Source of the DNA: a virus
DNA: 33,059 nucleotides
Reading direction: 5' to 3' (one strand)
Virus record (IMG/VR): IMGVR_UViG_3300037339_000488
Location: 1-33,059 of that record
The notes beneath the pieces were generated by a model. It was not told the origin of the DNA. It saw only the letters and a program-made list of their open reading frames with translations, and searched no databases. Both the position numbers and the translations under genes were made by a program. How positions within the stretch are numbered: position 1 is the stretch's first letter; every line of letters starts with the position of its first letter. Of the stretch, positions 2,922 to 31,243 are shown piece after piece.

Positions 2922-4774
2922 TGGCTGTTCGGTTTGACGCCACGGGGGACGGACTCTCGCGTACCGCGAGCCTGCCGTCGCGTACGGCGTTCACGGCGAT
3001 GGGCTGGTTCAAGATCACGACTGATCGCAATGACTACTCGGCATTTATTGGCTTAGATGCAGGGGATGCGTCAGGCGCCATCTATCAAACCAAGTCGGAT
3101 GGCACAACCACCAAAATCTACACAAACGGCAATAACGATGGGGCGGTCTTGGTTGTTGGGACCTGGTATCATCTGGCTCTGGTTGGCGACGCGACGAATT
3201 TTCTAGGCTATCTAAACGGTGCACTTGATATAACGGCGGCACAGTGGACGTTTACACCCACGGGACTCTATATTGGCAATGACGCTGGCGACGAGTGGCT
3301 GAACGGCTGCGCGGCCTACGTCAAAATCTGGTCGGCGGCGCTGACGGCGGCAGAAATCCAACAGGAGATGTATGTCATCAGCCCGCGGCGGCTGTTGAAT
3401 CTCTACAGTTGGACGCCGCTGCTGCCGGGGGCGGCGGAGCGGCTGCGGGACTATGGCGGTCTCGGCTACGATTGGACGGCGGGCGGAACGCTGGCTGATG
3501 AGGATGGCCCTCCGGTAAGTTGGGGGGCTCCGGTACGCGTTACGCAATACGTCGTGGCCGGTACGGAGTACAGTTTCTCCGCCACGTTGACGGCGGCGAG
3601 CAGCACGGCGGCAGCGGATGTGTTGATCGCCCGCAGTCTGGCTGCCACGCTGACCGGCGCGAGCAGCACGACAGCGGCGGATGTGTTGATCGCCCGCAGC
3701 CTGGTCGCCACGCTGACCGGCGCGAGCAGCACGGCGGCGGCTGACCTGGCTATCGCCCGCAGCCTGGCGGCGGTGTTGACCGGCGCGAGCAGCACGGCGG
3801 CGGCGGATGTGTTGATCGCCCGCAGCCTGGCTGCCACGCTGACCGGCGCGAGCAGCACGGCGGCGGCGGATGTGTTGATCGCCCGCAGCCTGGTCGCCAC
3901 GCTGACCGGCGCGAGCAGCACGGCGGCGGCGAATGTGTTGATCGCCCGCAGCCTGGCGGCGGTGTTGACCGGGGCTTCAGACACCGCAGCGGCTGACCTG
4001 GCTATCGCCCGCAGCCTGGTGGCGGTGCTGACCGGGGCTTCTGACACCGCAGCAGTGGACCTGGCGGTCGCCCGCAGCCTGGTGGCGGTGCTGACCGGGG
4101 CTTCTGACACCGCAGCAGTGGACCTGGCGGTCGCCCGCAGTCTGATCGCCACGCTGACCGGCGCGAGCACAACCAGCCTGCCGACGCTGAGCATCGCGAC
4201 CCTGGTGCAACTCGTGGCAGTCCTGACGGCGGTCTCCGACACGGCGGCGGTGGATATCGCGGTGGCTCGGAGTTTGGTCGCGACGCTGACGGCGGCCAGC
4301 GGTACGGATCCCGTCGATCTGGCCGTGCTGCGCGAGCTGATCGCCACGCTGACCAGCACAAGCTCGACCAGCCTGCCGGCGCTGGACGTGATGAATCTGA
4401 TCGCGCTGGCGGCGGCGCTGACGGCGGTCTCCGACACGGCCGTGGCTGATCTGGCGGTGGCTCGGAGTTTGGTCGCCACGTTGACGGCGGCCAGCGGTAC
4501 GGACCCCGCCGCCCTGGCGGTGCTGCGTGAGCTGGTGGCGGCACTGAGCAGCGCGAGCGCAACCGATCCCGCCGATCTGGTGGTGCTGCGCGCGCTGGCG
4601 GCCGTGCTGAGCAGCGCGAGCGCCACGTCAACGGCGCTGCTGCCGGTAGATCGCAGTTTGAGCGCCACGTTGACGGCGGTCTCGGCGACGACAAACGCGA
4701 CACTGCTGACAGGCGTGTTGCTTGCGGTACTGTTCCGCGGCATGTTCCGCGGCATGTTCAAAGCGATGAGGTGA
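2921..4774 (+). CDS. LamG-like domain protein with long 21-residue tandem repeat stalk
   Basis: This 617-residue protein starts at an ATG overlapping the previous stop (TGATG). Residues 1-150 match the pattern of a concanavalin/LamG fold (AMGWFKITTD; GTWYHLALVGD; GYLNGALD; IGNDAGDEWLNG; YVKIWSAALTAAEI), a fold used for sugar or surface binding. A linker follows to about residue 218. Then come 18 tandem repeats of mainly 21 residues with consensus LxATLTGASSTAAADVLIARS. The C-terminus is FRGMFRGMFKAMR. The arrangement suggests a binding head on a repetitive stalk, such as a fibre or surface-attached adhesin. The minus strand of the repeat is open for more than 400 codons because of repeat composition; that frame is not a gene. 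Confidence 0.85.
   Translation: MAVRFDATGDGLSRTASLPSRTAFTAMGWFKITTDRNDYSAFIGLDAGDASGAIYQTKSDGTTTKIYTNGNNDGAVLVVGTWYHLALVGDATNFLGYLNGALDITAAQWTFTPTGLYIGNDAGDEWLNGCAAYVKIWSAALTAAEIQQEMYVISPRRLLNLYSWTPLLPGAAERLRDYGGLGYDWTAGGTLADEDGPPVSWGAPVRVTQYVVAGTEYSFSATLTAASSTAAADVLIARSLAATLTGASSTTAADVLIARSLVATLTGASSTAAADLAIARSLAAVLTGASSTAAADVLIARSLAATLTGASSTAAADVLIARSLVATLTGASSTAAANVLIARSLAAVLTGASDTAAADLAIARSLVAVLTGASDTAAVDLAVARSLVAVLTGASDTAAVDLAVARSLIATLTGASTTSLPTLSIATLVQLVAVLTAVSDTAAVDIAVARSLVATLTAASGTDPVDLAVLRELIATLTSTSSTSLPALDVMNLIALAAALTAVSDTAVADLAVARSLVATLTAASGTDPAALAVLRELVAALSSASATDPADLVVLRALAAVLSSASATSTALLPVDRSLSATLTAVSATTNATLLTGVLLAVLFRGMFRGMFKAMR
3575..4720 (+). repeat. 18-copy 63-bp tandem repeat within the fibre gene
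   Basis: Repeats start at 3575, 3638, 3701 and so on every 63 bp. Copies 1-9 (3575-4141) are close to identical at DNA level. Copies 10 (4142) and 13 (4337) are 69 bp. Copies 10-12 and 13-15 form a diverged higher-order triplet. Later copies to about 4720 are degenerate. Near-identical copies mean recent expansion or ongoing homogenisation, and copy number may vary between relatives. The repeat period is a whole number of codons, so length changes stay in frame. Confidence 0.9.
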
Positions 4775-4777
4775 GAC

Positions 4778-5608
4778 ATGGGTAGTTTATCAGATTTCAG
4801 TGAGCTCGAGCTGTTGGATCACGTCTTCAACGCGGCTTACTCGCCCGTGGCGACGGTCTATCTGGCCCTGGCTACTGCCGATCCCACGGATGCGGGCACG
4901 GGGGCCAGCATGAGCGAATGTGCCTCGGCCAACGGCTACACCCGCAAAGCGATCGCTTTTGCGGCGGCGGCGGATCGGGCAATCGCTCAGGACGGCGCGG
5001 TGACTTTTGATGTAGCCTCCGGTTCCTGGGGCGCGCAGGTGTCGCACTGGGCCATCGTGGACAGCGGCACGCATGGCGCAGGAAACATGCTGGCCCATGG
5101 CGTGTTTGTCGAGCAGAAGGTCATCGCCAACGGTAACACGCCATCCGTAGCCAGCGGCGAAGTCGTGATTTCGTTCAGCGCAGGCGAGCTCAGCACCTAT
5201 CTGGCGCACAAGTTGCTGGAATTGATGTTCAAAAACACCGCCTACGCTAAACCCGCCACCTGGGTGGCGTTCGCCACGTCGGCTATCGAGGATACCGATG
5301 ATGGCTCGGCAATGGATGAGGTCTCCACTTCGGGCACGGCATACGCGCGGGTGCAGGTGAATATCAATGGCGGCTCGTCGCCCACCTGGGACCTGGCGGC
5401 CTCCGGCGTCGTGGATAACACGCACGCGGTCACCTTCCCAACGGCAACGGCTTCCTGGGGTACGATCACCTCCGTAGCGATTATGGATTCGACAACCGAG
5501 GACGCGGGCAACGTGCTATTTTACGACAACGCCATTGCTGATCAGGCGGTTGGCACGGGTGATACCTGTTCGTTCGCCATCGGTGCGCTCGACATCGAGA
5601 TGAGCTAA
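4778..5608 (+). CDS. Phage structural protein with tandemly duplicated domain
   Basis: This 276-residue protein starts four bases after the previous stop. It consists of two homologous halves. The first runs SELELLDHVFN, YLALATADPTDAG, MSECASANGYTRKAI, SGSWGAQVSHWAIVDS, GNMLAHG. The second runs HKLLELMFKNTAY, WVAFATSAIEDTDDG, MDEVSTSGTAYARVQV, TASWGTITSVAIMDS, GNVLFYD. The shared pattern (short helix, beta strands, GSWG-x-V-x-x-(W/A)AI-(V/M)-DS) is seen in small phage virion proteins of unknown function near capsid or fibre genes. No catalytic motif is visible. A decoration or head-fibre role is inferred. The stop overlaps the next start (TAATG). Confidence 0.8.
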   Translation: MGSLSDFSELELLDHVFNAAYSPVATVYLALATADPTDAGTGASMSECASANGYTRKAIAFAAAADRAIAQDGAVTFDVASGSWGAQVSHWAIVDSGTHGAGNMLAHGVFVEQKVIANGNTPSVASGEVVISFSAGELSTYLAHKLLELMFKNTAYAKPATWVAFATSAIEDTDDGSAMDEVSTSGTAYARVQVNINGGSSPTWDLAASGVVDNTHAVTFPTATASWGTITSVAIMDSTTEDAGNVLFYDNAIADQAVGTGDTCSFAIGALDIEMS

Positions 5609-19296: not shown

Positions 19297-19331
19297 CATA
19301 GTTATGTCGAAAACATAACGACATAACTATG
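19297..19331. promoter_or_regulatory. 13-bp inverted repeat before the initiator gene
   Basis: CATAGTTATGTCG (19297-19309) and CGACATAACTATG (19319-19331) are perfect inverted copies around nine bases. An inner half site ACATAAC (19312-19318) repeats the motif, giving three half sites. The element is A/T-rich against a GC-rich background and lies 45-79 bases upstream of the initiator start on the minus strand. It is probably an operator for initiator expression, or an additional origin element. Confidence 0.6.
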
Positions 19332-19347
19332 GGATACGGGATCGGGA

Positions 19348-19683
19348 TCATCCCAGAACGGCAAAACGACCCCCTTCCCGCAGCAGCGGGGGAGGGGAGT
19401 GAGATAAGCTGCCCGTGTCAGCCCCATTTGTGATGACACGTTCGTTGGATAGCAAACCCTGCAAACGCTCGACCTCCGTCAGCAGGCCGGCATCCGGGGA
19501 GTCATCCTCAAAACGGAATGCCTCCGTTTTAGTCAGCTTGATCGATTTGTTATCCGGCACAACAGACCATGCGCCTTGACAACTTTTGCCATGCCCGTTG
19601 CGATGATGGCGAAATCGCGTTTCGTTCGTCGCTGTCACCACTGTTGGTGCAAGCCTGTTGCATACCTGGCATCTGTGCTTCAT
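19348..19683 (-). CDS. Cassette gene: small zinc-binding protein
   Basis: The frame opens at 19689, but GGAGG sits correctly only for the ATG at 19683, giving 111 residues. The N-terminus CQVCNRL, then RHHRNGHGKSCQG, has Cys/His spacing of a treble-clef or zinc ribbon. The C-terminal 60 residues are low complexity and run over sequence resembling an attC arm (GATAAGCTGCCCGTG at 19402-19416). The start lies 13 bases after a GTTAGAC core site read on the minus strand, the usual layout of an integron cassette gene. Confidence 0.6.
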   Translation of the reverse strand: MKHRCQVCNRLAPTVVTATNETRFRHHRNGHGKSCQGAWSVVPDNKSIKLTKTEAFRFEDDSPDAGLLTEVERLQGLLSNERVITNGADTGSLSHSPPPLLREGGRFAVLG

Positions 19684-19695
19684 GGTCATCCTCCC

Positions 19696-19750
19696 GTCTA
19701 ACGGATTGCTTCACCTGCGGCCCTCGCAACTCCCGTTGCGATGTTGCGAG
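19696..19750 (-). other. Truncated integron attC site (site A)
   Basis: GTCTAAC (19696-19702; GTTAGAC on the gene strand) is followed by TTCACCTGCGGCCC, the same inner arm as in the full attC at 24052-24145. Similarity stops after the central hairpin (CGCAAC tccc GTTGCG), and the second core site is missing. It marks the edge of the first cassette run. Confidence 0.6.
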
Positions 19751-19799
19751 ATTCCTGCATTCTCGCAAAAACAAAACACAACCAGTTTTCGGAAACCTA

Positions 19800-19828
19800 T
19801 TGACATCTGTATAGTAATCTGCTATACT
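19800..19828 (+). promoter_or_regulatory. Sigma70-like promoter with overlapping operator
   Basis: TTGACA (19800-19805), a 17-base spacer and TATACT (19823-19828) form a near-consensus promoter. GTATAG (19809-19814) and CTATAC (19822-19827) are inverted repeats inside it, likely an operator that overlaps the -10. It drives the two plus-strand genes that follow, which sit backwards in the minus-strand cassette run. The rest of 19703-19878 shows no gene. Confidence 0.8.
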
Positions 19829-19878
19829 TTTGTCAGGATCAGGAAAACAAAACGGCCACCCAACAAGGAGATAAAACC

Positions 19879-20100
19879 ATGAAAGCCACCATCAACGGAA
19901 CGCAGATCAAGGGGTTTTTCGGGCAGCATCTGGACAACGGCAGCAAATGGTTGTTTGTGAATGGCACGAGCAGCAAAACCATCCGCAACAGCTATGCCAT
20001 TGCCAAAGTCCTCGACAACGGCGATGTGATTGTCGAACCCCGGCAGCAGTTGAGCGATTTCACGAACGAGCAGATTGTCGCCGCCCTGCTGAACGCATAA
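19879..20100 (+). CDS. Small unknown protein, first gene of self-promoted insert
   Basis: This 73-residue protein has AAGGAG seven bases before ATG. It opens with beta strands (MKATINGTQIKGFFGQHLDNG) and ends with a helix (LSDFTNEQIVAALLNA). No catalytic motif is visible. It lies immediately downstream of the promoter at 19800 and 35 bases before a ribbon-helix-helix-type gene with which it shares promoter and terminator. A toxin-antitoxin-like or regulator pair is one possibility, but the sequence alone does not show it. Confidence 0.65.
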   Translation: MKATINGTQIKGFFGQHLDNGSKWLFVNGTSSKTIRNSYAIAKVLDNGDVIVEPRQQLSDFTNEQIVAALLNA

Positions 20101-20135
20101 TGATGGTCTGGCCATAGGCCAGCACCGAGGGTATC

Positions 20136-20516
20136 ATGGCCCAGTTCAACATCCGAGACCTGCCCGATGGCACAGCATGGCAAATTGATCAACTCACTGC
20201 TCGGCTCGGCTACACCAAAACGCAACTGGTCATCATCGCCATTGATCGCATGTTCCAACAGGAGGCTCCCATGTCTGAAGAATTTCTCAGCGTCGTTGAG
20301 TCGTTCAACAACAACCCATCCGGCACGGTTGACACCCGGCTGGCGCATATCGGAAACGACTGGTTCGTCTACACGTTCAACCTGAACACCGCACAGGTCC
20401 GCAACGACAACGAGTTCGCCAAACACAACGCGGCGGGCATCCGTTACCTGTTCGCCCCCATGACAGAGGACGAGGCCCGGCAGGAGTTCGCTCGCCGGAA
20501 AAACGCTACTCAGTAG
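20136..20516 (+). CDS. Ribbon-helix-helix-type regulator with extra C-terminal domain and internal start
   Basis: This 126-residue protein has GAGG upstream. Residues 1-43 (QFNIRDLPDGTAWQIDQLTARLGYTKTQLVIIAIDRMFQQ) follow the pattern of an Arc/CopG-type DNA-binding domain: a strand and two helices. An in-frame ATG at 20271 is preceded by AGGAGG with ideal spacing and would produce the C-terminal 81 residues alone (MSEEFLSVVESFNNNPSG onward). The upstream operator in the promoter at 19800 suggests self-regulation. What the C-terminal domain does is unknown. Confidence 0.65.
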   Translation: MAQFNIRDLPDGTAWQIDQLTARLGYTKTQLVIIAIDRMFQQEAPMSEEFLSVVESFNNNPSGTVDTRLAHIGNDWFVYTFNLNTAQVRNDNEFAKHNAAGIRYLFAPMTEDEARQEFARRKNATQ

Positions 20517-20539
20517 CACGATCAGCTCTCCCATCTCAA

Positions 20540-20566
20540 CCCCTCCCCACGGAGGGGCTTTGTTTT
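20540..20566 (+). terminator. Rho-independent terminator
   Basis: CCCCTCC (20540-20546) pairs with GGAGGGG (20551-20557) around a four-base loop and is followed by CTTTGTTTT. It closes the two-gene plus-strand unit at 19879-20516. Confidence 0.75.
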
Positions 20567-20571
20567 GGCCC

Positions 20572-20673
20572 GTCTAACGGTTGGGATAAGCTGCCCGTGA
20601 GTCATCCTCCGGTGCAGCTCGCCCCCTGGTCAATCCCGTGACGTTCCACGGGCAGCTTATCCCATTGTTAGAC
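20572..20673 (-). other. Integron-type attC site (site B), full, 102 bp
   Basis: Core sites GTCTAAC (20572-20578) and GTTAGAC (20667-20673) bound two long complementary arms (GGGATAAGCTGCCCGTG and its complement). The loop contains GAACGTCACGGGAT on the minus strand, also present in the attC at 24394-24496. Unlike its relatives, the inner arms pair without extrahelical bases. The minus-strand gene at 20680-20889 ends seven bases from its core site, as cassette genes do. Confidence 0.8.
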
Positions 20674-20679
20674 GGGGGC

Positions 20680-20889
20680 TTACGGAACTTTCGCGTTCTG
20701 AATCCCCGTCATTATGCCCGGAACAAAGATGATTGACAGTAGCGCTGCAACAAACAAGACGAAAAGCGCCCGCGCCCATTCCGGCGCCGGCGGCTTCGTG
20801 TGCGTTCGGCGCTTCCACTGACGATCTCCCCTAAGGGTGCAAATCCAAACAAACAGTACCAACACCCCCACGATTATGATGATTTCCAT
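20680..20889 (-). CDS. Cassette gene: small two-helix membrane protein
   Basis: This 69-residue protein has GGAGGGAGGG upstream. Hydrophobic segments lie at residues 2-17 (EIIIIVGVLVLFVWIC) and 41-60 (ALFVLFVAALLSIIFVPGIM), separated by a basic loop (RGDRQWKRRTHTKPP). It lies between two GTTAGAC-type core sites on the minus strand: one 14 bases before its start, the other just after its stop. It has no promoter of its own, as expected of a gene cassette. No family is recognised. Confidence 0.7.
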   Translation of the reverse strand: MEIIIIVGVLVLFVWICTLRGDRQWKRRTHTKPPAPEWARALFVLFVAALLSIIFVPGIMTGIQNAKVP

Positions 20890-20903
20890 GTATCCCTCCC
20901 TCC

Positions 20904-20964
20904 GTCTAACAACATATATGCGGAAACTTTCCGCTTATCTGCGCATCAGGGCGCTAATTGACGA
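20904..20964 (-). other. attI-like or truncated attC element (site D)
   Basis: A single core site (GTCTAAC at 20904-20910) is followed by a hairpin (GCGGAAA c TTTCCGC) and TATCTGCGCATCAGGGCG, and then the stop (TTA) of a phage gene. The same element occurs at 24712-24765 after another phage gene. No inverted second core site is seen. Both copies stand at the start of a cassette run, which is where attI would be. Confidence 0.5.
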
Positions 20965-21663
20965 TTACAAACTTGCCATGTCGCCATTGGCGGCTCGGAT
21001 GCGCACACGAGAGACCGCCGCGTGGCGGGCCAGGGCCGCCAGGGCCGCCTCCTCGCTACCGGAGGTCCAGATCCCGCCCCTTGCGCCGCGCTCCAGGATG
21101 CCGGCGTTTTGGAGCGTCTTGACGCCGGCCTCCCATTCGGCCCGCGTCATACCCCGCTCCATCGCAGACGCCCGGGCCAGTACATTCTCCATGTCGCGCA
21201 CGTTGGCGGCGACGGCGACGTAATAGTCGCGTACCATGCGCTCCGCCGCCTCGCGTGCGCCCCAACTGTGCGCGACCATGCCCTCGGATTTCAGGCGGTC
21301 TACCTCAGCCAGTAGGCGCACGTTCTCGGCGCGCAGGGCCTCGGTGGTGGCGTCCAGGCTGCCGGCCGCGTAGGCGGAGACGAGGATCGAGATTTCGTCC
21401 CGAAACGCCCTGATCATGCAAGACAAGCCGAACACCGTGGCGCCGGCAATGACAGAAACCTTGAAGATCATCTCGGCCTCGCCCGGCCACAGCGCCTGGC
21501 CGATCAGGGCCCCGAGCACCGCCGTGCCGATGCCGCCAATCGCGTTTTGGGCCAGCGGCGCGATGACACCCGCCATCCAGATCGAGGCGGCCTCGCGCGG
21601 CTGATTCTCGGTGGGCGACGGTGCTGGCGGTGCGGCCGGCTGGAGTGTCGGGGCGAATTTCAC
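20965..21663 (-). CDS. Membrane protein with coiled coil, unknown role
   Basis: Longer in-frame starts exist (to 21723). A GTG at 21663 overlaps the upstream stop (GTGA) and has GGAG six bases before it, giving 232 residues. Residues about 30-60 and 68-88 are hydrophobic (APLAQNAIGGIGTAVLGALIG; IFKVSVIAGATVFGLSCMI). A helix/coiled coil follows (DATTEALRAENVRLLAEVDRLKSEG). The C-terminal 90 residues (MTRAEWEAGVKTLQNAGILERG) resemble a winged helix. It may link the membrane to DNA or to a partner protein. It is the last of four coupled membrane-related genes. Confidence 0.65.
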   Translation of the reverse strand: MKFAPTLQPAAPPAPSPTENQPREAASIWMAGVIAPLAQNAIGGIGTAVLGALIGQALWPGEAEMIFKVSVIAGATVFGLSCMIRAFRDEISILVSAYAAGSLDATTEALRAENVRLLAEVDRLKSEGMVAHSWGAREAAERMVRDYYVAVAANVRDMENVLARASAMERGMTRAEWEAGVKTLQNAGILERGARGGIWTSGSEEAALAALARHAAVSRVRIRAANGDMASL

Positions 21664-21887
21664 GACGGACTCCACGTGCGCCAGGCCCATTGTCCGGACC
21701 GAATCAGAAACGCCAATCCCCACAGCGGCCAGGCGATGCGTTTCAGCAGAATTTCAGCCGTGGCCGCATCAGGCGCCAGGAACTTGATGATCAGCGAGCC
21801 GGCGGCCACGACGAGGATGCACAGCAGGGCGATACTCGTCGTGTTTGTCAGCGTGTAGATGTAATGGGCGTAACGATGGGTTGTCAT
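21660..21887 (-). CDS. Small two-helix membrane protein
   Basis: This 75-residue protein starts at an ATG preceded by AGGTGATGAG. Two hydrophobic stretches occur: TSIALLCILVVAAGSLIIKFL (about 17-37) and LLKRIAWPLWGLAFLI (about 47-62). It is followed by a GTGA-coupled gene. It belongs to the phage membrane-protein cluster 20965-22477. No function is recognised. Confidence 0.6.
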   Translation of the reverse strand: MTTHRYAHYIYTLTNTTSIALLCILVVAAGSLIIKFLAPDAATAEILLKRIAWPLWGLAFLIRSGQWAWRTWSPS

Positions 21888-21944
21888 CTCATCACCTGCG
21901 ATTCCCGATTGCGAATCCGATCACGATCACGACCACACAGATAA

Positions 21945-22301
21945 TCAGCGCGGGCGTGTCAGCGCCTGCACGAGTTGCAGGATGCCCAGGAGCAACACGC
22001 CGACTGACAGCAGAGTGATCGTCCCCTGATTCTCCGCCGTCAGCGATTTGAGGGTCAGGGCGAATACCTGCATCCTCTCGGTGCTGCCGGACTCGTGGGC
22101 GCGGGCCAGCTCGACCTGCGCATAGGCCCGCGCCGATTCGACCTGCGCCCTGGCGTTCCACTGTTCGGCCACGGCCCGCTCGCGCTGGACGCTGAGGTCG
22201 CTGATTAGATAGATCGAGCCGCCGATCAGGGCGATGATCAGCACGATGCCAGCCAGGATGCCGAAGACGGGATTGGGGCCGCTGGTGGGTAGATCGTTCA
22301 T
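21945..22301 (-). CDS. Membrane protein with periplasmic/cytoplasmic helical domain
   Basis: This 118-residue protein starts in an ATGA overlap. A helix at 10-34 (VFGILAGIVLIIALIGGSIYLI) and another at 95-113 (TLLSVGVLLLGILQLVQAL) flank a helical, Ala/Glu/Arg-rich segment (RERAVAEQWNARAQVESARAYAQVELARAHE). The two-transmembrane topology with a coiled middle recalls holin or superinfection-exclusion proteins, but no signature proves this. It is coupled to the gene upstream. Confidence 0.65.
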   Translation of the reverse strand: MNDLPTSGPNPVFGILAGIVLIIALIGGSIYLISDLSVQRERAVAEQWNARAQVESARAYAQVELARAHESGSTERMQVFALTLKSLTAENQGTITLLSVGVLLLGILQLVQALTRPR

Positions 22302-22477
22302 CGCTCGACCCCCGCCGGCACGGGGCCGGCCAGCACGTTGCCGAGCGAGCGGCCGACGATAGACGGCTCGTGTCCGTAGCGTGCCAGGAAGGCCGCCCGG
22401 GCTTCGGCCTCGGTGGTGGTCTTGGTGAAGGCCAGCCAGTAGTCCCGGCTGGTTTGTTGGGGGGATAGTTCGGCCAT
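22298..22477 (-). CDS. Small soluble protein, unknown
   Basis: The ATG at 22477 has AGGAG upstream. The 59-residue product begins MAELSPQQTSRDYWLAF and continues with a helix TTEAEARAAFLARYGHEPSIV. It has the look of a small helical adaptor. It is the first gene of the four-gene coupled unit ending at 20965. No obvious promoter is seen, so it is probably read from further upstream. Confidence 0.6.
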   Translation of the reverse strand: MAELSPQQTSRDYWLAFTKTTTEAEARAAFLARYGHEPSIVGRSLGNVLAGPVPAGVER

Positions 22478-22528
22478 GTGTCTCTCCTGTGGTATCATGG
22501 ATTCACCCGGTCGGTCTCTCCGCCGGGG

Positions 22529-22552
22529 GCCGGGGCTGACACCCCGGCTTTT
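22529..22552 (+). terminator. Plus-strand terminator-like hairpin with no matching gene
   Basis: GCCGGGG (22529-22535) pairs with CCCCGGC (22542-22548), followed by TTTT. No convincing plus-strand gene lies upstream. It may stop antisense transcription, or its minus-strand form may shape the leader of the gene starting at 22477. Confidence 0.5.
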
Positions 22553-22795
22553 CTATTCCAGAGACGGATCGGGGAGAGGAAGGCGAGCAGACTCATAACG
22601 CCTATCTCCCCTGGGCTTTCGACTATCGGCCACAGCCAGAATTCGCCAGACCAATCGCCGGGAGTGATCGTGACCGACCTTCAACGGTTCTGCTGCCGCT
22701 CCCATGCTGGACTGCCAGACACGGGCACGCCTAGGGCGTTTTCTAGCCTGTCGCTCACGTTTCCCGGGATTGTTTGCTCGTCGCATCGCGCTCAT
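22553..22795 (-). CDS. Doubtful small basic protein
   Basis: This 80-residue frame starts at an ATG nine bases after GAGGT, which overlaps the methyltransferase stop. The N-terminal third is very basic (RERQARKRPRRARVW). The rest has no recognisable motif. Coding is uncertain. If it is not real, 22478-22802 holds only the terminator-like hairpin. Confidence 0.3.
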   Translation of the reverse strand: MSAMRRANNPGKRERQARKRPRRARVWQSSMGAAAEPLKVGHDHSRRLVWRILAVADSRKPRGDRRYESARLPLPDPSLE

Positions 22796-22802
22796 TGGGC
22801 TG

Positions 22803-23423
22803 TTACCTCACGTGCCTACTCACCCATTGTCCGATATACTTCGTGTATGCCGGCGGAATTGCTTGCCGCAATTCTCGGCCAGTCATCCAATCAATGCCCA
22901 TCGCCTCGGCGGGGTTCTGGCCAGCAGCCAGGCCGGTGACACCGGCGCCCTGGCCGTATTTCGCCATGTTTGCGCGACCGTGAAACAACACGGGATGACC
23001 TGGACACGGCGGGAAAAGCAGCATCATATTACTCTCGAACCGCCTATGGCGAACGATAGACAGACCAAGCGCAGCTCCGCACAACTCGGCACCGTTCAAC
23101 GGTGCATCGCTGACGTTTTCGATAACGTAAACTTTGCCGGTCGCCTGCAAGGCAAAACGAGTAACCGGGATCAGCAGGGGATACTCTCGACCTGCCAACC
23201 ACGGCAAATGGCGTAGCCGGCTGTATCCCTGGCACGGCGGAGACGCGTGAATCACATCGAACTCCGCCCCATGTGCAGCACAGTATTCGAGCGCATCGGC
23301 CTGATGAAACTCAAACGGGTAGTGGGGCTGCGGCTTGATGTCCACGCCTACGACCTCGAAGCCTGCCCGATGGTAGCCCATCGCTGCCCCACCAGCCCCA
23401 CAAAACAAGTCAAGTAACTTCAT
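22803..23423 (-). CDS. DNA (cytosine-5) methyltransferase, compact
   Basis: The ATG at 23423 begins MKLLDLFCGAGG, the standard motif I, so the longer frame is rejected. The protein has 206 residues. Motif I (SAM binding) is at 4-11, motif IV SPPCQGYS at 61-68 with catalytic Cys64, motif VI ENV at 102-104, motif VIII-like RHRRFE at 125-130, and motif IX/X-like ELRQAIPPAYT at 184-194. The long target-recognition region found in larger enzymes is absent or very short. Such compact enzymes occur in phages and protect DNA against host nucleases. It starts 11 bases after an attC core site, like a cassette gene, but no attC is seen downstream. Confidence 0.85.
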   Translation of the reverse strand: MKLLDLFCGAGGAAMGYHRAGFEVVGVDIKPQPHYPFEFHQADALEYCAAHGAEFDVIHASPPCQGYSRLRHLPWLAGREYPLLIPVTRFALQATGKVYVIENVSDAPLNGAELCGAALGLSIVRHRRFESNMMLLFPPCPGHPVLFHGRANMAKYGQGAGVTGLAAGQNPAEAMGIDWMTGRELRQAIPPAYTKYIGQWVSRHVR

Positions 23424-23434
23424 TGCACACGTCC

Positions 23435-23554
23435 ATCTAACGGTTGGGATAAGCTGCCCGTCAACCCTCTGACGGTACAGCGCCCGGTGCATCCGGGGAA
23501 TCAACTTCGCTACCATCCAACCAGCTTCGGGTCAGCTTCATTTCGTTGTTAGAC
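23435..23554 (-). other. Integron-type attC site (site C), 120 bp
   Basis: Core sites ATCTAAC (23435-23441) and GTTAGAC (23548-23554). The arms carry GGGATAAGCTGCCCG and, on the other side, AATGAAGCTGACCCG, so the second arm has extra unpaired bases. Such extrahelical bases are a defining feature of attC folding. The coding strand around the core reads NNEMKLTRSW, a typical read-through tail. Confidence 0.8.
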
Positions 23555-23739
23555 GGCTCGTAGTAGTGGTCAAATCCCTCGATCCAAATGTGAGGTGCCC
23601 ACAGCACCGCGAAAACAGGCGTCTTGCCACATTCGCATTCGGCTTCTGTCTCTCTCGGAATGCCGTCCGCAGTTTCGACACAGAGTTCAATTTTTCTGCC
23701 GCAGTTGGGGCAAGTCTGGTTGAATTTATAGAGCGACAT
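23461..23739 (-). CDS. Cassette gene: zinc-ribbon protein with attC read-through tail
   Basis: The ATG has GGAGG four bases upstream. Residues 1-65 are the real domain: FNQTCPNCGRKIELCV, then ECECGKTPVFAVLW, two Cys pairs of a zinc ribbon. From about residue 63 (SNNEMKLTRSWLDG) translation runs into the attC site, a common artefact or natural tail of cassette genes. The start lies 17 bases after the previous core site GTTAGAC. No enzymatic motif is visible. Confidence 0.65.
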   Translation of the reverse strand: MSLYKFNQTCPNCGRKIELCVETADGIPRETEAECECGKTPVFAVLWAPHIWIEGFDHYYEPSNNEMKLTRSWLDGSEVDSPDAPGAVPSEG

Positions 23740-23755
23740 ACATCCTCCAAGAGCC

Positions 23756-23864
23756 GTCTAACGGTCAGGCGTCAGCCGCAGCGGGTTGACGCACGTCCTC
23801 AGATTCAGCGGCGATACTCTCACGACCGGCCAGCTCCGCTGTCGGCTGGACGCCGTGGTTAGGA
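23756..23864 (-). other. Integron-type attC site (site H), 109 bp
   Basis: Core sites GTCTAAC (23756-23762) and GTTAGGA (23858-23864). One arm reads GGCGTCAGCCGCAGCGG, the other GGCGTCCAGCCGACAGCGG. They pair except for two extra bases (C and A) on one arm, as expected for attC. It separates the genes at 23461-23739 and 23765-24043. Confidence 0.8.
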
Positions 23865-24043
23865 CGTAGCGCAAATGGCTCGATGCTGCTAGCGTCAAAC
23901 TCAACATCTGGTTCAGCATCCCACTCCGCCAGCATTCGCAGCAGCTTCTTGTTGCGCCAGCGGTTCGTAATGGCAATCCATAGCCACCACACAAGGAATC
24001 CTGGCCGTCTCATCTGCTGCTTGCGCCAATCACGATACATCAT
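23765..24043 (-). CDS. Cassette gene: small basic/hydrophobic protein with attC read-through tail
   Basis: Start ATGATG at 24043 with AGGA upstream, 9 bases after the core site. The 92-residue product begins MMYRDWRKQQMRRPGFLVWW, with a hydrophobic segment (PGFLVWWLWIAI) flanked by basic residues, suggesting membrane contact. The part after about residue 60 (RPNHGVQPTAELAG) is attC read-through, a wording often seen in hypothetical cassette proteins. No known family. Confidence 0.55.
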   Translation of the reverse strand: MMYRDWRKQQMRRPGFLVWWLWIAITNRWRNKKLLRMLAEWDAEPDVEFDASSIEPFALRPNHGVQPTAELAGRESIAAESEDVRQPAAADA

Positions 24044-24051
24044 AGCGTCCG

Positions 24052-24145
24052 TCCTAACGGTTGGGTTCACCTGCGGCCCCGCCCGCGTGACTCTCGTTGT
24101 CCACAATCCCACCGGCGGGGCCGTCAGGTAGACGCAGTGTTAGAC
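24052..24145 (-). other. Integron-type attC site (site G), 94 bp
   Basis: Core sites TCCTAAC (24052-24058) and GTTAGAC (24139-24145). One arm is TTCACCTGCGGCCCCGCC, the other TCTACCTGACGGCCCCGCC. They pair with one extra A. Same family as the truncated site at 19696. Confidence 0.8.
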
Positions 24146-24386
24146 GGCCAAACGGCGCACCACCGGATTTTGCCAGCGCGATAGCCCACGCTTGCGCCAT
24201 TGTTGGCCGAAACGATTTCGAGAAATGCGCCCAGCCGCGCTCTACGTGGTAAAGCACATAGCAGCCAGCGCACCACTTGAATGGATTGCCGGTCGCCACA
24301 GCAAAACCGCACCACGGACATGAGATGATTTCCAGCAGGTGTCCGGTTGCTCTGACGGTCTCGCACTCAGCATGTCGTTTGCACAT
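24054..24386 (-). CDS. Cassette gene: zinc-ribbon protein with attC read-through tail
   Basis: The ATG at 24386 has AGGA seven bases upstream, inside the previous core site. The 110-residue frame holds ISCPWCGFAVATG, then WCAGCYVLYHVERGW: two CxxC pairs of a zinc ribbon. From about residue 80 (FGRLTLRLPDGPAGG) it reads through the whole attC site and stops in its last core site (CGT TAG). The functional part is probably the first 80 residues. It is in the same orientation as its neighbours and promoterless. Confidence 0.65.
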   Translation of the reverse strand: MCKRHAECETVRATGHLLEIISCPWCGFAVATGNPFKWCAGCYVLYHVERGWAHFSKSFRPTMAQAWAIALAKSGGAPFGRLTLRLPDGPAGGIVDNESHAGGAAGEPNR

Positions 24387-24393
24387 CTCGATA

Positions 24394-24496
24394 TCCTAAC
24401 GGTTGGGATAAGCTGCCCGACCACTGCGGTTCGGTGCGGCTTACCCCTATGTCATCCCGTGACGTTCCACGGGTCAGCTTCATCCCGTTGTTAGGA
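24394..24496 (-). other. Integron-type attC site (site F), 103 bp
   Basis: Core sites TCCTAAC (24394-24400) and GTTAGGA (24490-24496). One arm is GGGATAAGCTGCCCG, the other GGGATGAAGCTGACCCG. The extra G and A are extrahelical. The loop holds GAACGTCACGGGATGAC, almost identical to the loop of the site at 20572. The best-formed attC in the window. Confidence 0.85.
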
Positions 24497-24694
24497 CGCC
24501 CTCGGATCGGAACGCCCTTCAGAGTATGTTCCGCCCTTGACAACGGCATAGCCTCCGTCCACAGCTACCCGTTCCTGACATCGCGGGCAGACTGCTGACT
24601 GCCAAACCAAGTCCCATTTGGGCGGTAATTGGTTCCGGTTACTCTGCCGAAAACAGAACTCGCATACCCATTTCCACCACCGGCGCTTTACCAT
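24491..24694 (-). CDS. Cassette gene: small zinc-ribbon protein
   Basis: The ATG at 24694, nine bases after AGGAG, is preferred over the one at 24703, which is too close. The 67-residue product is KRRWWKWVCEFCFRQSN, then VCPRCQERVAV: two CxxC pairs about 27 residues apart, a zinc ribbon with an aromatic/basic N-terminus. The stop TAA lies in the attC core site. It is the first cassette after the attI-like element at 24712. Confidence 0.65.
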   Translation of the reverse strand: MVKRRWWKWVCEFCFRQSNRNQLPPKWDLVWQSAVCPRCQERVAVDGGYAVVKGGTYSEGRSDPRAS

Positions 24695-24711
24695 GTGTAT
24701 CATCTCCTGGC

Positions 24712-24765
24712 GTCCTAACGGTATGTAGGCGGAGAGTTTCCGCCTATCTCGTCGCACGAGGGCGA
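24712..24765 (-). other. attI-like or truncated attC element (site E)
   Basis: A single core site (GTCCTAAC at 24712-24719) is followed by TAGGCGGA/TCCGCCTA (a perfect 8-bp stem) and TATCTCGTCGCACGAGGGCG, ending at the stop of the phage gene at 24766. It matches site D at 20904 (hairpin, TATCT, AGGGCG, then gene stop TTA). No partner core site is seen. Confidence 0.5.
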
Positions 24766-24990
24766 TTACGGATTCTCCGTGTATCGTCCCGCCCGGGCCT
24801 CTCTGGCTGTTGTTTCGATTTTCGCCAGCTCGTCGCTGACGGTTGCCAGTTTCGCCAGCAAAAGCGGGTCCTGCGTCCGCTGCGCCCGATCCAGGACGAT
24901 GCGCCAGGCGCTGCGGGCGTTGATGCAGCCGGCGATGATGTCCTCCAGCGCCCAGCCGGTTTTATTAGCGAGCCGGGTCGGTGTGGCCAC
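24766..24990 (-). CDS. Small helical protein, unknown
   Basis: The GTG at 24990 has GGAGG six bases upstream, within the end of the previous gene. The 74-residue product begins MATPTRLANKTGWALEDIIAG and continues as charged helices (LLAKLATVSDELAKIETTAREAR). It overlaps the membrane protein gene upstream by 26 bases, so the two are translationally coupled. It is the last phage gene before a cassette run. No family is recognised. Confidence 0.65.
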   Translation of the reverse strand: MATPTRLANKTGWALEDIIAGCINARSAWRIVLDRAQRTQDPLLLAKLATVSDELAKIETTAREARAGRYTENP

Positions 24991-25264
24991 GGGCGGCCTC
25001 CAGTTGCTCCCGGTGGTCGCGCCATTCGTTGGCCAGCGAGCGGCCGATGATGCCGATGGCGGAAGCGCTGATGACGACGCTGATCTGGAGCCAGACGGTG
25101 ATAGGCAGGATGGCCAACAGGATCAGCAGGTCGATGCCGACGCCGATGACAACGGTCAGCCAGGTGCGGCGGGCGGCCAGGAATTGGCCCCAGGCGGTGT
25201 GCTGTAGGACGACCGCCCAAACTATTCCCCAGACTGCTGCCAGAATGACCGCCATGATCAGCAT
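24965..25264 (-). CDS. Small membrane protein (2-3 helices), holin-like topology
   Basis: This 99-residue protein has AGGAG upstream of ATG. Hydrophobic segments are about residues 1-21, 36-55 (TWLTVVIGVGIDLLILLAIL) and 56-73 (ITVWLQISVVISASAIGI). The C-terminus is charged (EWRDHREQLEAARGHTD). The layout could fit a holin, but it sits in the early, not the lysis, region, so superinfection exclusion or another membrane role is as likely. It is followed by a coupled small gene. Confidence 0.6.
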   Translation of the reverse strand: MLIMAVILAAVWGIVWAVVLQHTAWGQFLAARRTWLTVVIGVGIDLLILLAILPITVWLQISVVISASAIGIIGRSLANEWRDHREQLEAARGHTDPAR

Positions 25265-25337
25265 CGGTGTATGCTCCTCGTGTGGTGAGAAGGGAACTTA
25301 TCTGTGTGCGTCGGTTGGGTCGTAGGCGCAATGGATA

Positions 25338-25361
25338 GCGCGATAACTGTTGTTATCGCGC
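25338..25361. repeat. 10-bp perfect hairpin at the end of the recombinase gene
   Basis: GCGCGATAAC (25338-25347) and GTTATCGCGC (25352-25361) pair around TGTT. The hairpin overlaps the recombinase stop. No T-run follows on the minus strand, so it may be a weak terminator or a recombinase-binding site. The intergenic stretch 25265-25352 has no gene. Confidence 0.5.
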
Positions 25362-26354
25362 CTCCCCCCTTACCAGGTCGAATTTCAGGCCCCGTGGGAG
25401 CAAAGCGCCAATCGTGTCCGCCTGCGGATCCACCGGCCGATCCAGCGTCCGCAGGTAGCGGATGGTGGTGTTCGGCGAGTCATGGGCCAGCACGTCCTGC
25501 AGCTCGATGATGTCGGCGCCGTTCTCGCGGCGGAACTGCGCGCCGGCGTGACGCAGGCCATGCGGATAGAGACAGCGGTCGGGGATGCCGACCTCCTGCC
25601 CGTAACGTTTGATCAGCCGGGTCACGTAGCCCGCATTGAGCGGCCCGCCCTGGCTGGGATTGAGCCGCTCGCCGGCATCCGAGAGGGCGACGAACAAATA
25701 GGCGTCCGGCGCCAGGGGCAGCCGACCGGCCCGGCTGAGATAGGCGTCGATGATGCGCCAAATGTCATGGCTGAGCTGTTGCCGCTTGGGCGCGCCGCCT
25801 TTGCAGCGGTAGGTGAAGGCGTGATACGTGCCGGCATGTTCGATGTCGCCGGCGCACAGGTTGAGCCATTCGGACACGCGCCGGGTGGTGGCCACCAGGC
25901 CAGCGATGAGGGCCAGGTTGCGCAGCCCGGTGGCCGTGTCGGTCGGGATCACCGCCAGCAGGGCCGTGATCTGCACAGTGGTCGGGAAATCCACCAGGGC
26001 CTGCGTGCGCGTGTTGCGTAGCGAGCGGTCCGTAAATGGGTTCGGGTACGGCCACAGTTTGGTGCGGCCGCCTGCGGGGGCATACTCGGCTGCGTAGCGA
26101 TACAGGCTCGCCAGCGCCGAGAGTTTGCGGTTGATGGTGGCCGGCGCCAGGGCGCGGGCGGTCTTTTCCTGCACCCAGGTTTCGACCCGGGTTGCGGTGA
26201 TCTCCCACGGTGCGGCCGGTTGGCTGTTGAAGAAATCCATCACATCACTCGCATAGGCGCGTCGGGTGTTGTTGCGCCCGGATTTGCGCTCGATCTGGCA
26301 GAGCCAGGCTTCCTGGCAGCGTTGCCATTGTTCTTGCAGGTTCTCGTCTGCCAT
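25353..26354 (-). CDS. Tyrosine recombinase (second, early-operon)
   Basis: This 333-residue protein has an N-terminal SAM-like core-binding domain (about 8-95: WQRCQEAWLCQIERK, RRAYASDVMDFF, NRKLSALASLYRYAA) and a C-terminal catalytic domain. Catalytic residues visible are Arg158/159 (TTRRVSEW), Lys185 (RCKGGAP), His265-x-x-Arg268 (HGLRH), His291 and Tyr300. It lacks the extra helix region that marks integron integrases. It lies just upstream of the second cassette run, in the same direction. It may be an inversion, resolution or accessory recombinase, or a second integrase. Confidence 0.85.
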   Translation of the reverse strand: MADENLQEQWQRCQEAWLCQIERKSGRNNTRRAYASDVMDFFNSQPAAPWEITATRVETWVQEKTARALAPATINRKLSALASLYRYAAEYAPAGGRTKLWPYPNPFTDRSLRNTRTQALVDFPTTVQITALLAVIPTDTATGLRNLALIAGLVATTRRVSEWLNLCAGDIEHAGTYHAFTYRCKGGAPKRQQLSHDIWRIIDAYLSRAGRLPLAPDAYLFVALSDAGERLNPSQGGPLNAGYVTRLIKRYGQEVGIPDRCLYPHGLRHAGAQFRRENGADIIELQDVLAHDSPNTTIRYLRTLDRPVDPQADTIGALLPRGLKFDLVRGEAR

Positions 26355-28801: not shown

Positions 28802-28871
<70 letters not shown>

Positions 28872-28942: not shown

Positions 28943-29066
28943 GTCTCCATTTTACCTCGGATGACACGGTTGCTCGGGTTTCCGGTTCAAAAAAACGTTC
29001 CGCTCGATTATCAGTACAGGCGTGCTGATTATCACCACAGGACGGTACGAACCGGAGGCGACACGG

Positions 29067-30041
29067 ATGAAATCTCTCACTCTCTCTCAGGCTATCCAGG
29101 GGTTTGCGCTGGCGTGCTCGGCGCGCCAGTTGTCGGTGCATACGCTGCGCGATTATGCGACGACGCTGCGCCGGTTTCAGGAATTCGTCGATGGTGATCC
29201 GTTGCTGTCCGACATCGGACCGGATACGGTGCGGCGGTTCATGGCGTTCCTGGCGACGCCCCAGCCAGGTGGCGGGGCGGTGGCCAGGGCGCCCCGGCCG
29301 CTGAGCAAAAAGACGAGCCTGAACTATCACACGGGGTTGAGCGCACTGTGGACGTGGGCGGTAGGCGAGCGGGTTGTGGAGCGCAATGTGGTGCGCGAGG
29401 TGGAGCCGCCCCGGGCGGAGAAGCCGGCGATCGTGCCGTTGAGCCAGGCGGATGTGCAGGCGCTGGTGGCGGCCTGCGAGCGGTCGCGGGCGTATGGCCG
29501 GCCGGGCAAGCGGGTTTGCGACAACGCCAGGCCGACGGGGCTGCGGGATAAGACGCTGCTCTTCATCCTCCTGGATACGGGGATGCGGGCGAGCGAGGTG
29601 TGCGGGATCACGGCCCGAGACGTTGATCTGAAAAATCGGCGGGTATGCGTGCTGGGGAAGGGCGACAAAGAGCGGTCGCTGCCGATCTCGCCGGAGACGG
29701 CCCGGGTGCTGTGGCGGTATATGTCAGAGCGGGCGGAGGCGAAGGCGAGTGAGCCGCTGTTCGTGACGATCACCGGCCGGCCGCTGGACCGGGTGGTGTT
29801 GCTGGAGATGTTGAAGGACCTGGGGGCAAAGGTGGGGGTGGCGGACTGTCATCCGCACCGCTTCCGACATACGTTCGCGATCAACTTCCTGCGCAATGGC
29901 GGGAACGTGTACGAGCTCCAGATGGCGCTGGGTCACACGTCGCTGGAGATGGTGCGGGTGTACCTGGCGCTGGCGGAGACGGATCTCCAACGGGCGCATG
30001 AGGAGGCCAGCCCGGTAACAAAATGGCGGCTGAAGAGTTGA
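29067..30041 (+). CDS. int: Phage integrase, tyrosine recombinase (XerC/D-like)
   Basis: The ATG at 29067 has GGAGG eight bases upstream and is chosen over one at 29022. The 324-residue product has an N-terminal core-binding domain (about 5-110: FALACSARQLSVHTLRDYATTL, SLNYHTGLSALWTWAV) and a catalytic domain. Catalytic residues visible are Arg174 (TGMRASEV), Lys198 (LGKGDKER), His264-x-x-Arg267 (HRFRH), His290 (LGHTSLEM) and Tyr299 (VYL). The adjacent attP confirms the role. It integrates and excises the phage at tRNA-Pro. Confidence 0.9.
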   Translation: MKSLTLSQAIQGFALACSARQLSVHTLRDYATTLRRFQEFVDGDPLLSDIGPDTVRRFMAFLATPQPGGGAVARAPRPLSKKTSLNYHTGLSALWTWAVGERVVERNVVREVEPPRAEKPAIVPLSQADVQALVAACERSRAYGRPGKRVCDNARPTGLRDKTLLFILLDTGMRASEVCGITARDVDLKNRRVCVLGKGDKERSLPISPETARVLWRYMSERAEAKASEPLFVTITGRPLDRVVLLEMLKDLGAKVGVADCHPHRFRHTFAINFLRNGGNVYELQMALGHTSLEMVRVYLALAETDLQRAHEEASPVTKWRLKS

Positions 30042-30213: not shown

Positions 30214-30450
30214 ATGCGTAATTTCGTCAGTATGGCGCCGGGGGCCATGTGGGCGGCGATCATCCTGGGCCTGAGCCTGGGTGCGATCTGGCTGAACGAC
30301 TATCTGGGTTCGGTGGTGCCGAACTGGTTGCCGCCATTGATTCTGACTGTTATCGTGCCGGTCCTCAAGGTGTTGGCACAGGGTGAGACGCCGGCCAGTC
30401 GCGGCGAGAGGACAGCCAATAAATCGCTCTTCAGCCGTTGGCTTTTCTGA
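30214..30450 (+). CDS. Small membrane protein, first gene of CHAT module
   Basis: The ATG has GGAGG five bases upstream; the longer frame starts inside the promoter. The 78-residue product has hydrophobic segments at about 10-28 (GAMWAAIILGLSLGAIWL) and 38-54 (WLPPLILTVIVPVLKVL) and a polar C-terminus (GETPASRGERTANKS). The shape recalls holins or pore-forming partners. It ends 16 bases before the CHAT protease start, so the two are probably co-expressed. Confidence 0.65.
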   Translation: MRNFVSMAPGAMWAAIILGLSLGAIWLNDYLGSVVPNWLPPLILTVIVPVLKVLAQGETPASRGERTANKSLFSRWLF

Positions 30451-30466
30451 GCGGAGAACTGCGTGC

Positions 30467-31243
30467 GTGTCTGTACTGATGGTTGCTCCTACCAGAGCGG
30501 ACCTGCCGAACGTCGCTATCGAGGCGGCGGCGGTGGTCAACGCGCTCGGTGGGAAGTTGGTGCAGGGGCCGGTGACAGAGCGGGATGTGCGCGATGCAGC
30601 CAGCGCTGGCGTATACGATGGCATCTGGTTTGCGACGCACGCCGATGGCAATCATGTGCTACTGAGCGAGGGATCGTTGAGCGAGGCGGCGCTGGTGGCG
30701 TATGTGGCGGCCAGCGGGGCCACATGGTGTTTTCTCAACACGTGTCAGAGCATTGCCCTCGGGAAACGTCTCATCGACCAAACACAGGCCGATGTGATCT
30801 GCACCATTACGGATACCCCGGATGGCGAGGCGATGCGCACAGGGGTGCTATTCGCCCGGCAGTTGAGCCTGCTCGGAGACACCCGGGATGCTTATGAGCG
30901 CAGCAAGCCGGGTGATGATCGCAATTATCTCTATCTCGACAACTACAGGCAGCGTCAAATGGCAGCAGTGGGACAGCCCGGATCCTATCCGGCGCAGGAT
31001 CGATTACAGACGACGATGGATGATATGCGCCGGGAGATGAGCAAGGTGGCATCTGATGTGGAGGTCCTCAAATCCCAGACTACTGTTATGGGCGCCCGTC
31101 AGCAGCGCATGGAGGATCGTTTGGATGCTATCGAGCGTGAACTGCGGCCCGTGCCGAGCTGGCAGACATGGGCAATATTGTTTTTGGGGTTCGTCGCCTG
31201 TGCGCTGATCACGTTGTTGCTGCTCCGTTCGCGGATAATGTGA
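30467..31243 (+). CDS. CHAT (caspase-like) protease with coiled coil and C-terminal membrane anchor
   Basis: A GTG at 30467 with GGAG ten bases upstream is chosen (ATG 30479 has no ribosome site). The product has 258 residues. Residues 50-61 (YDGIWFATHADG) and 87-96 (WCFLNTCQSI) are the His and Cys blocks of clan CD peptidases, with His58 and Cys93 as the dyad. The run to about 145 (ICTITDTPDGEAMRTGVLFARQL) follows the CHAT pattern. A coiled coil lies at about 180-228 and one membrane helix at 235-254 (WAILFLGFVACALITLLLL). CHAT proteases cut other proteins and serve in bacterial defence and cell-death systems. The fold call rests on motif reading. Confidence 0.7.
   Translation: MSVLMVAPTRADLPNVAIEAAAVVNALGGKLVQGPVTERDVRDAASAGVYDGIWFATHADGNHVLLSEGSLSEAALVAYVAASGATWCFLNTCQSIALGKRLIDQTQADVICTITDTPDGEAMRTGVLFARQLSLLGDTRDAYERSKPGDDRNYLYLDNYRQRQMAAVGQPGSYPAQDRLQTTMDDMRREMSKVASDVEVLKSQTTVMGARQQRMEDRLDAIERELRPVPSWQTWAILFLGFVACALITLLLLRSRIM

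Follow-up and report, generated by a model that had tools for sequence, protein, structure and literature searches.

Putative attI docking sites and integron attC arrays in a phage genome fragment without an integron integrase

The stretch of DNA analyzed here, referred to as the window, is the entire IMG/VR record IMGVR_UViG_3300037339_000488 (33,059 bases). Its genes for a tail-completion protein and a replication initiator, together with those for an HNH endonuclease and two tyrosine recombinases, mark it as phage DNA, and the record is a 33-kb phage fragment (classed as linear in IMG/VR). Its features of interest are given below; bit scores and E values of attC sites refer to the covariance model R1 described thereafter.

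19348 to 19689, minus strand: last cassette-like gene (ORF list, repeat)
19400 to 19417: remnant of an attC arm, within the last cassette-like gene (repeat)
19696 to 19760, minus strand: truncated attC reduced to a single core site and arm (sequence and repeat; no R1 match)
19697 to 20571, plus strand: segment bounded by core sites, carrying two plus-strand genes (19879 to 20100, 20136 to 20516)
20572 to 20673, minus strand: attC A (38.6 bits, E 3e-8), a perfect palindrome without an extra arm base
20680 to 20889, minus strand: cassette gene at attI2, small membrane protein
20904 to 20960, minus strand: putative attI2, core GTTAGAC, palindrome GCGGAAAGTTTCCGC, second hairpin
20965 to 22498, minus strand: four phage backbone genes (22298 to 22498, 21945 to 22301, 21660 to 21887, 20965 to 21723)
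22803 to 23432, minus strand: C5-cytosine DNA methyltransferase gene (PF00145, E 5e-10)
23435 to 23554, minus strand: attC B (39.3 bits, E 2e-8)
23560 to 23739, minus strand: cassette 4 gene, Cys-rich, tail ...SNNEMKLTRSW through the attC (ORF list; no Pfam family above cut-off)
23756 to 23864, minus strand: attC C (41.5 bits, E 6e-9)
23765 to 24043, minus strand: cassette 3 gene, tail ...PNHGVQPTAE through the attC (ORF list; no Pfam match)
24052 to 24145, minus strand: attC D (22.5 bits, E 5e-4)
24150 to 24386, minus strand: cassette 2 gene, frame extending into attC D (ORF list; no Pfam family above cut-off)
24394 to 24496, minus strand: attC E (51.3 bits, E 1.7e-11)
24500 to 24694, minus strand: cassette 1 gene, small Cys-rich protein (ORF list; no Pfam family above cut-off)
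24712 to 24765, minus strand: putative attI1, core GTTAGGAC, palindrome TAGGCGGAAACTCTCCGCCTA (24726 to 24746), second short hairpin
25353 to 26354, minus strand: tyrosine recombinase near attI1, not an integron integrase (PF00589; 25 bits on the IntI profile)
28802 to 28871, plus strand: tRNA-Pro sequence in which 48 bases match a Chloroflexota tRNA-Pro gene exactly
29022 to 30041, plus strand: phage integrase beside tRNA-Pro, not an integron integrase (phrog_1, E 3e-50; 28 bits on the IntI profile)

An earlier note on this DNA had proposed five full attC sites where sites A to E are listed, and exactly these are returned by both of our searches. A mechanical detector, which requires paired core sites and complementary arms, finds the five full sites and no others in the window, compared with 0.03 per window in order-1 Markov shuffles. 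The covariance-model check suggested in the note was run with model R1, trained on ten bacterial attC sites only and on no phage sites as a safeguard against circularity; 10 of its 18 base pairs show changes on both sides. R1 recovers the same five sites, all on the minus (gene) strand with E values from 1.7e-11 to 5e-4, and gives no further match in the window up to E = 1. It also detects arrays in phages L004, L006, L015, L031, L059, and L202. The core sites take the form RYYYAAC and GTTRRRY, with imperfect inverted arms, and the variant TCCTAAC, one base off the consensus, is indeed seen in two sites. Extrahelical (unpaired) bases on one arm had also been described correctly for four of the five sites, site A being the exception. 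On this sequence evidence the five are genuine attC sites, and their recombination by an integron integrase is inferred, without an assay. Having at least two attC sites and no integron integrase, the window (a 33-kb fragment) fits the criterion for a CALIN, a cluster of attC sites lacking an integrase.

Three arrays, those of the window, L004, and L059, include C5 methyltransferase genes; in L006, the cassette closest to attI (4707-5375) codes for an RNA ligase (PF09414). The remaining cassette genes are small and uncharacterized. The methyltransferase cassettes, together with the RNA ligase of a relative, suggest counter-defense, with any benefit to the phage being an inference. As a cargo, the RNA ligase is unusual and could repair host-cleaved tRNA. 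The methyltransferase gene of the window has a core site on its upstream side only, with no attC after the gene. The genes at 20965-22498 are rejected as cassettes, as homologous blocks in L202 and L206 identify them as phage backbone. The minus-strand genes of the array do appear promoterless, as had been claimed: a scan of the array found no minus-strand promoter above 9/12 consensus matches. With regard to the Pc criterion, the array is thus without a consensus promoter, and the attI elements are placed after operon genes. The plus-strand segment at 19697-20571 has a promoter (19800-19828) and a terminator (20540-20557) of its own, and its right end is common to L015 as far as the core site.

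Three partial attC sites had been reported in addition. The one at 19696 is a truncated attC, but those at 20904 and 24712 are of a different kind and resemble attI docking sites, which the first reading had missed. This changes the picture, turning scattered attC sites into two docking platforms. Both elements have the same architecture: next to a core site comes a palindrome (TAGGCGGA...TCCGCCTA), then another short hairpin. The two are homologous. attI1 lies directly after the stop codon of gene 24990-24766, and attI2 directly after that of gene 21723-20965. Cassette arrays also begin with this element in phage records L004, L006, L015, L031, L059, and L060, the last of which has only an attC remnant beside it.

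A search of bacterial genomes with the attI pattern recovered 87 stretches, mostly from Cyanobacteria and Chloroflexota. Since the phage copies had supplied this pattern, likeness in sequence is circular here, and the independent evidence is the neighborhood, namely intI and the side and strand of attC. The search around the bacterial copies covered comparable lengths of the two flanks (297 and 327 kb) and gave 49 attC matches outside the training set; 44 of them fall on the array side, and every one has the strand of the array. About 12 of the 87 copies have an IntI or IntI fragment within 600 bases beyond attI on the nonarray side, nearly always divergent, as in classical integrons. At four loci, in Microcystis aeruginosa, M. 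wesenbergii, Chamaesiphon, and an acidobacterium, the IntI scores above the curated cut-off and lies 134 to 340 bases from attI. Because in bacteria the element adjoins IntI and heads attC arrays on the right side and strand, the elements at 24712 and 20904 are most likely attI sites. The complete-integron criterion of an attI adjoining the first cassette is thus satisfied by homology to bacterial elements, with activity inferred.

Further observations concern the bacterial copies themselves. Across L061 to L147, attI is frequent in Cyanobacteria and usually heads attC arrays with no adjacent intI. A far flank of at least 1.5 kb is available for 70 of 89 copies, most of these 70 showing no IntI. 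In two cyanobacterial loci (L151 and L154), a tandem run of many diverged attI-like units, each with the palindrome and a CCC...GGG hairpin, lies between intI and the array.

The phage record contains no integron integrase, in agreement with the earlier note; the best TIGR02249 score is 23 bits against a cut-off of 265, and an IntI profile search concurs. On that profile, the two phage tyrosine recombinases reach 25 to 28 bits (true IntI, 390 to 636) and match in the general catalytic parts only. Eight further viral records likewise yielded no IntI above the cut-off. The claim that integron-type attC sites and cassettes reside in a phage genome is therefore upheld by the independent covariance model and the profile search. 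Separately, one viral record (L012; record G430, 770-1081) combines at least three attC sites with an IntI-like fragment of 129 bits that spans the IntI-specific region.

Related phages show that the cargo of these platforms differs. L015 carries a homologue of gene 24990-24766 (protein 92% identical) and an attI in the same place as attI1. Window positions 20508-20578 align with L015 1971-2041 at 86%, and window positions 24721-25292 with L015 2044-2623 at 82%; the intervening 4.1-kb block (window 20578-24713) is missing from L015, with both junctions exactly at the CTAAC core. We considered L015 as an empty site and rejected this, as only the 4.1-kb block is missing and beyond its attI there are five attC sites of its own, with different cassettes. 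At the second platform, L202 encodes a homologue of the 20965-21723 protein (52% identical) and has an attI in the same place as attI2, followed by a different cassette with its own attC. The position of attI2 is kept between the window and L202 across 66% nucleotide divergence. The window has both platforms, one conserved in L015 and the other in L202. Near-identical attC sites are also found on different genes in different phages. The earlier note had held that relatives with a fixed gene order and no cassette turnover would refute it; this is not what we see, as different cassettes sit at the same attI. The same phage backbone without cassettes, which it had also called for, is found in L206, where the attI2-side backbone gene runs directly into backbone sequence with neither attI nor attC.

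Evidence for the host of this phage points toward Chloroflexota, which is likely but not proven. The Chloroflexota MAG LacPavin_0920_WC70_MAG_64_18 has a tRNA-Pro gene sharing 48 identical bases with the phage tRNA-Pro sequence, which is a probable attP core, and a related integrase adjoins this gene. The same MAG holds an attI of the phage type together with attC sites. A search of 301 Chloroflexota genomes with the tail protein gave no match. The annotated phage collection contains no near-identical phage record, the methyltransferase (approximately 75%) being the sole match, and no match to attI1 or attC E. No relative was found among the viral contigs searched with the recombinase near attI1, and Rfam at gathering thresholds gave no match in the window.

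We consider it probable that the window represents a temperate phage bearing integron platforms without an integrase, whose cassettes are rearranged in trans by a host IntI. Each platform would begin with an attI immediately behind an operon gene's stop codon; its cassettes, which have attC sites but no promoters, may be transcribed from the phage operon. A host IntI, supplied during lysogeny or infection, would recognize the attI of the phage DNA, along with its attC sites in folded form, and insert or excise cassettes in trans, so that gain, loss, and swapping would proceed by site-specific recombination at the core sites (G/TTRRRY). What rests on direct evidence is the attC sites and their order, the attI element with its bacterial link to IntI and attC arrays, the absence of IntI from the phage record, the breakpoints from core to core, and the differing cassettes of relatives; the host IntI as the acting enzyme and the present-day activity of the platforms are inferred. 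Several findings weigh against this explanation. No host cell is known with both the phage and IntI, and LacPavin_0920_WC70_MAG_64_18 lacks an IntI above the cut-off, although this MAG may be incomplete. In addition, the sole Chloroflexota genome with a full IntI has no such form of attI upstream of it, and phage-type attC sites are rare across 400 Chloroflexota genomes.

Homologous recombination between the repeated sites could be an alternative route of shuffling. In its strongest form, this would make the arrays fossils that came from host integrons and now change only through homologous recombination and drift, with no integrase acting on the phage copies. The truncated attC at 19696, the arm remnant at 19400-19417, the absence of extra arm bases in attC A, and the lack of an integrase in the record all fit such decay. 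It is nevertheless unlikely, though it deserves to be kept in mind, given that the L015 junctions fall exactly at core sites, that attI2 has stayed in place through the divergence from L202 while the cassette differs, and that near-identical attC sites accompany different genes in different phages.

The phage recombinase at 25353-26354 might itself recombine attI and attC as a nonstandard integron integrase. Along the reading direction of the array, its gene is 0.6 kb away from attI1; L015 has a divergent tyrosine recombinase in the corresponding position, and L202 has a homologue. The protein itself lacks the IntI-specific region. It is very unlikely to be the enzyme, because five phages with the same attI (L004, L006, L031, L059, and L060) have no tyrosine recombinase detectable by the IntI profile in the whole record. 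Beyond attI1, the tyrosine recombinases of the window (25353-26354) and of L015 (2.7-4.0 kb) are 25% identical between well-conserved flanks. That the head element is merely a transcription terminator, operator, or mobile-element end abutting the cassettes is scarcely credible. It does form a strong hairpin, and attI2 is listed as terminator-like in the promoter and terminator scan. However, the element has no T tract and attaches exactly to the GTTAGRC core, and in bacteria it adjoins intI and stands at the start of attC arrays, with side and strand as expected of an attI.

The explanation by phage platforms and a host IntI can be set beside known systems. Capture of cassettes by phages, suggested in the earlier note, is only partly new: attC clusters without integrase have been published in phages (Qi et al., 2023; PMC9892861), where IntI1 was able to recombine five of the six phage attC sites assayed and methyltransferase cassettes were already noted (PMC9892861). 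The window shares with these phage CALINs (PMC9892861) attC sites and promoterless cassettes, including methyltransferases, in a phage without intI. It differs in that each array starts at an attI, with two attI sites per genome at conserved positions, in that relatives carry other cassettes or none, and in phage group and attI type. Also published is one prophage with an attI and attC cluster, Shewanella prophage M16-3 (PMC9892861), which like the window has a CALIN with its own attI inside the prophage. Unlike the window, M16-3 is cryptic and also contains a complete integron with intI, whereas our record has no IntI and an attI type found in Cyanobacteria and Chloroflexota. Chromosomal integrons of Cyanobacteria, Chloroflexota, and others (e.g., Microcystis aeruginosa NIES-4325, L093) have the same attI palindrome and core, with attC arrays on the same side and strand of attI; however, in these intI adjoins attI or the location is bacterial, while the window's platforms stand in a phage operon without intI.

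Within the open-access literature searched, which leaves most subscription papers uncovered, we found no report of the window's attI type nor of paired, positionally conserved phage attI sites. Two positionally conserved attI sites per phage, together with visible cassette turnover, appear new. We further propose, as an idea that could equally turn out right or wrong, that this phage lineage maintains attI as an evolved trait, that host IntI in trans swaps in counter-defense cassettes (DNA methyltransferases, RNA ligase), and that a single cassette pool serves phages and host integrons alike. Our findings suggest that phages can carry a docking site for mobile cassettes, the cargo of which a host enzyme changes, and suggest a concrete route for integron cassettes between bacteria via such sites. 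Whether one integrase serves many distant attI sites becomes a testable question, because the same attI is found without adjacent intI in many Cyanobacteria.

Some other parts of the window also show particular structure. After the last cassette, a GC-rich palindromic leader (GGGATCATCCC...CCCCCTTCCCGC) occupies 19331-19402. L206 has it too, directly after the backbone gene and inverted with respect to its orientation in the window; a related leader follows attC in L202. In the tail gene region, 2921-4774 encodes a protein with about a dozen near-identical repeats (SLVATLTGASSTAAADVLIAR). Elsewhere, the product of 30383-31243 is weakly CHAT-like (caspase-type) and ends in a C-terminal membrane segment; this protein is conserved in L202.
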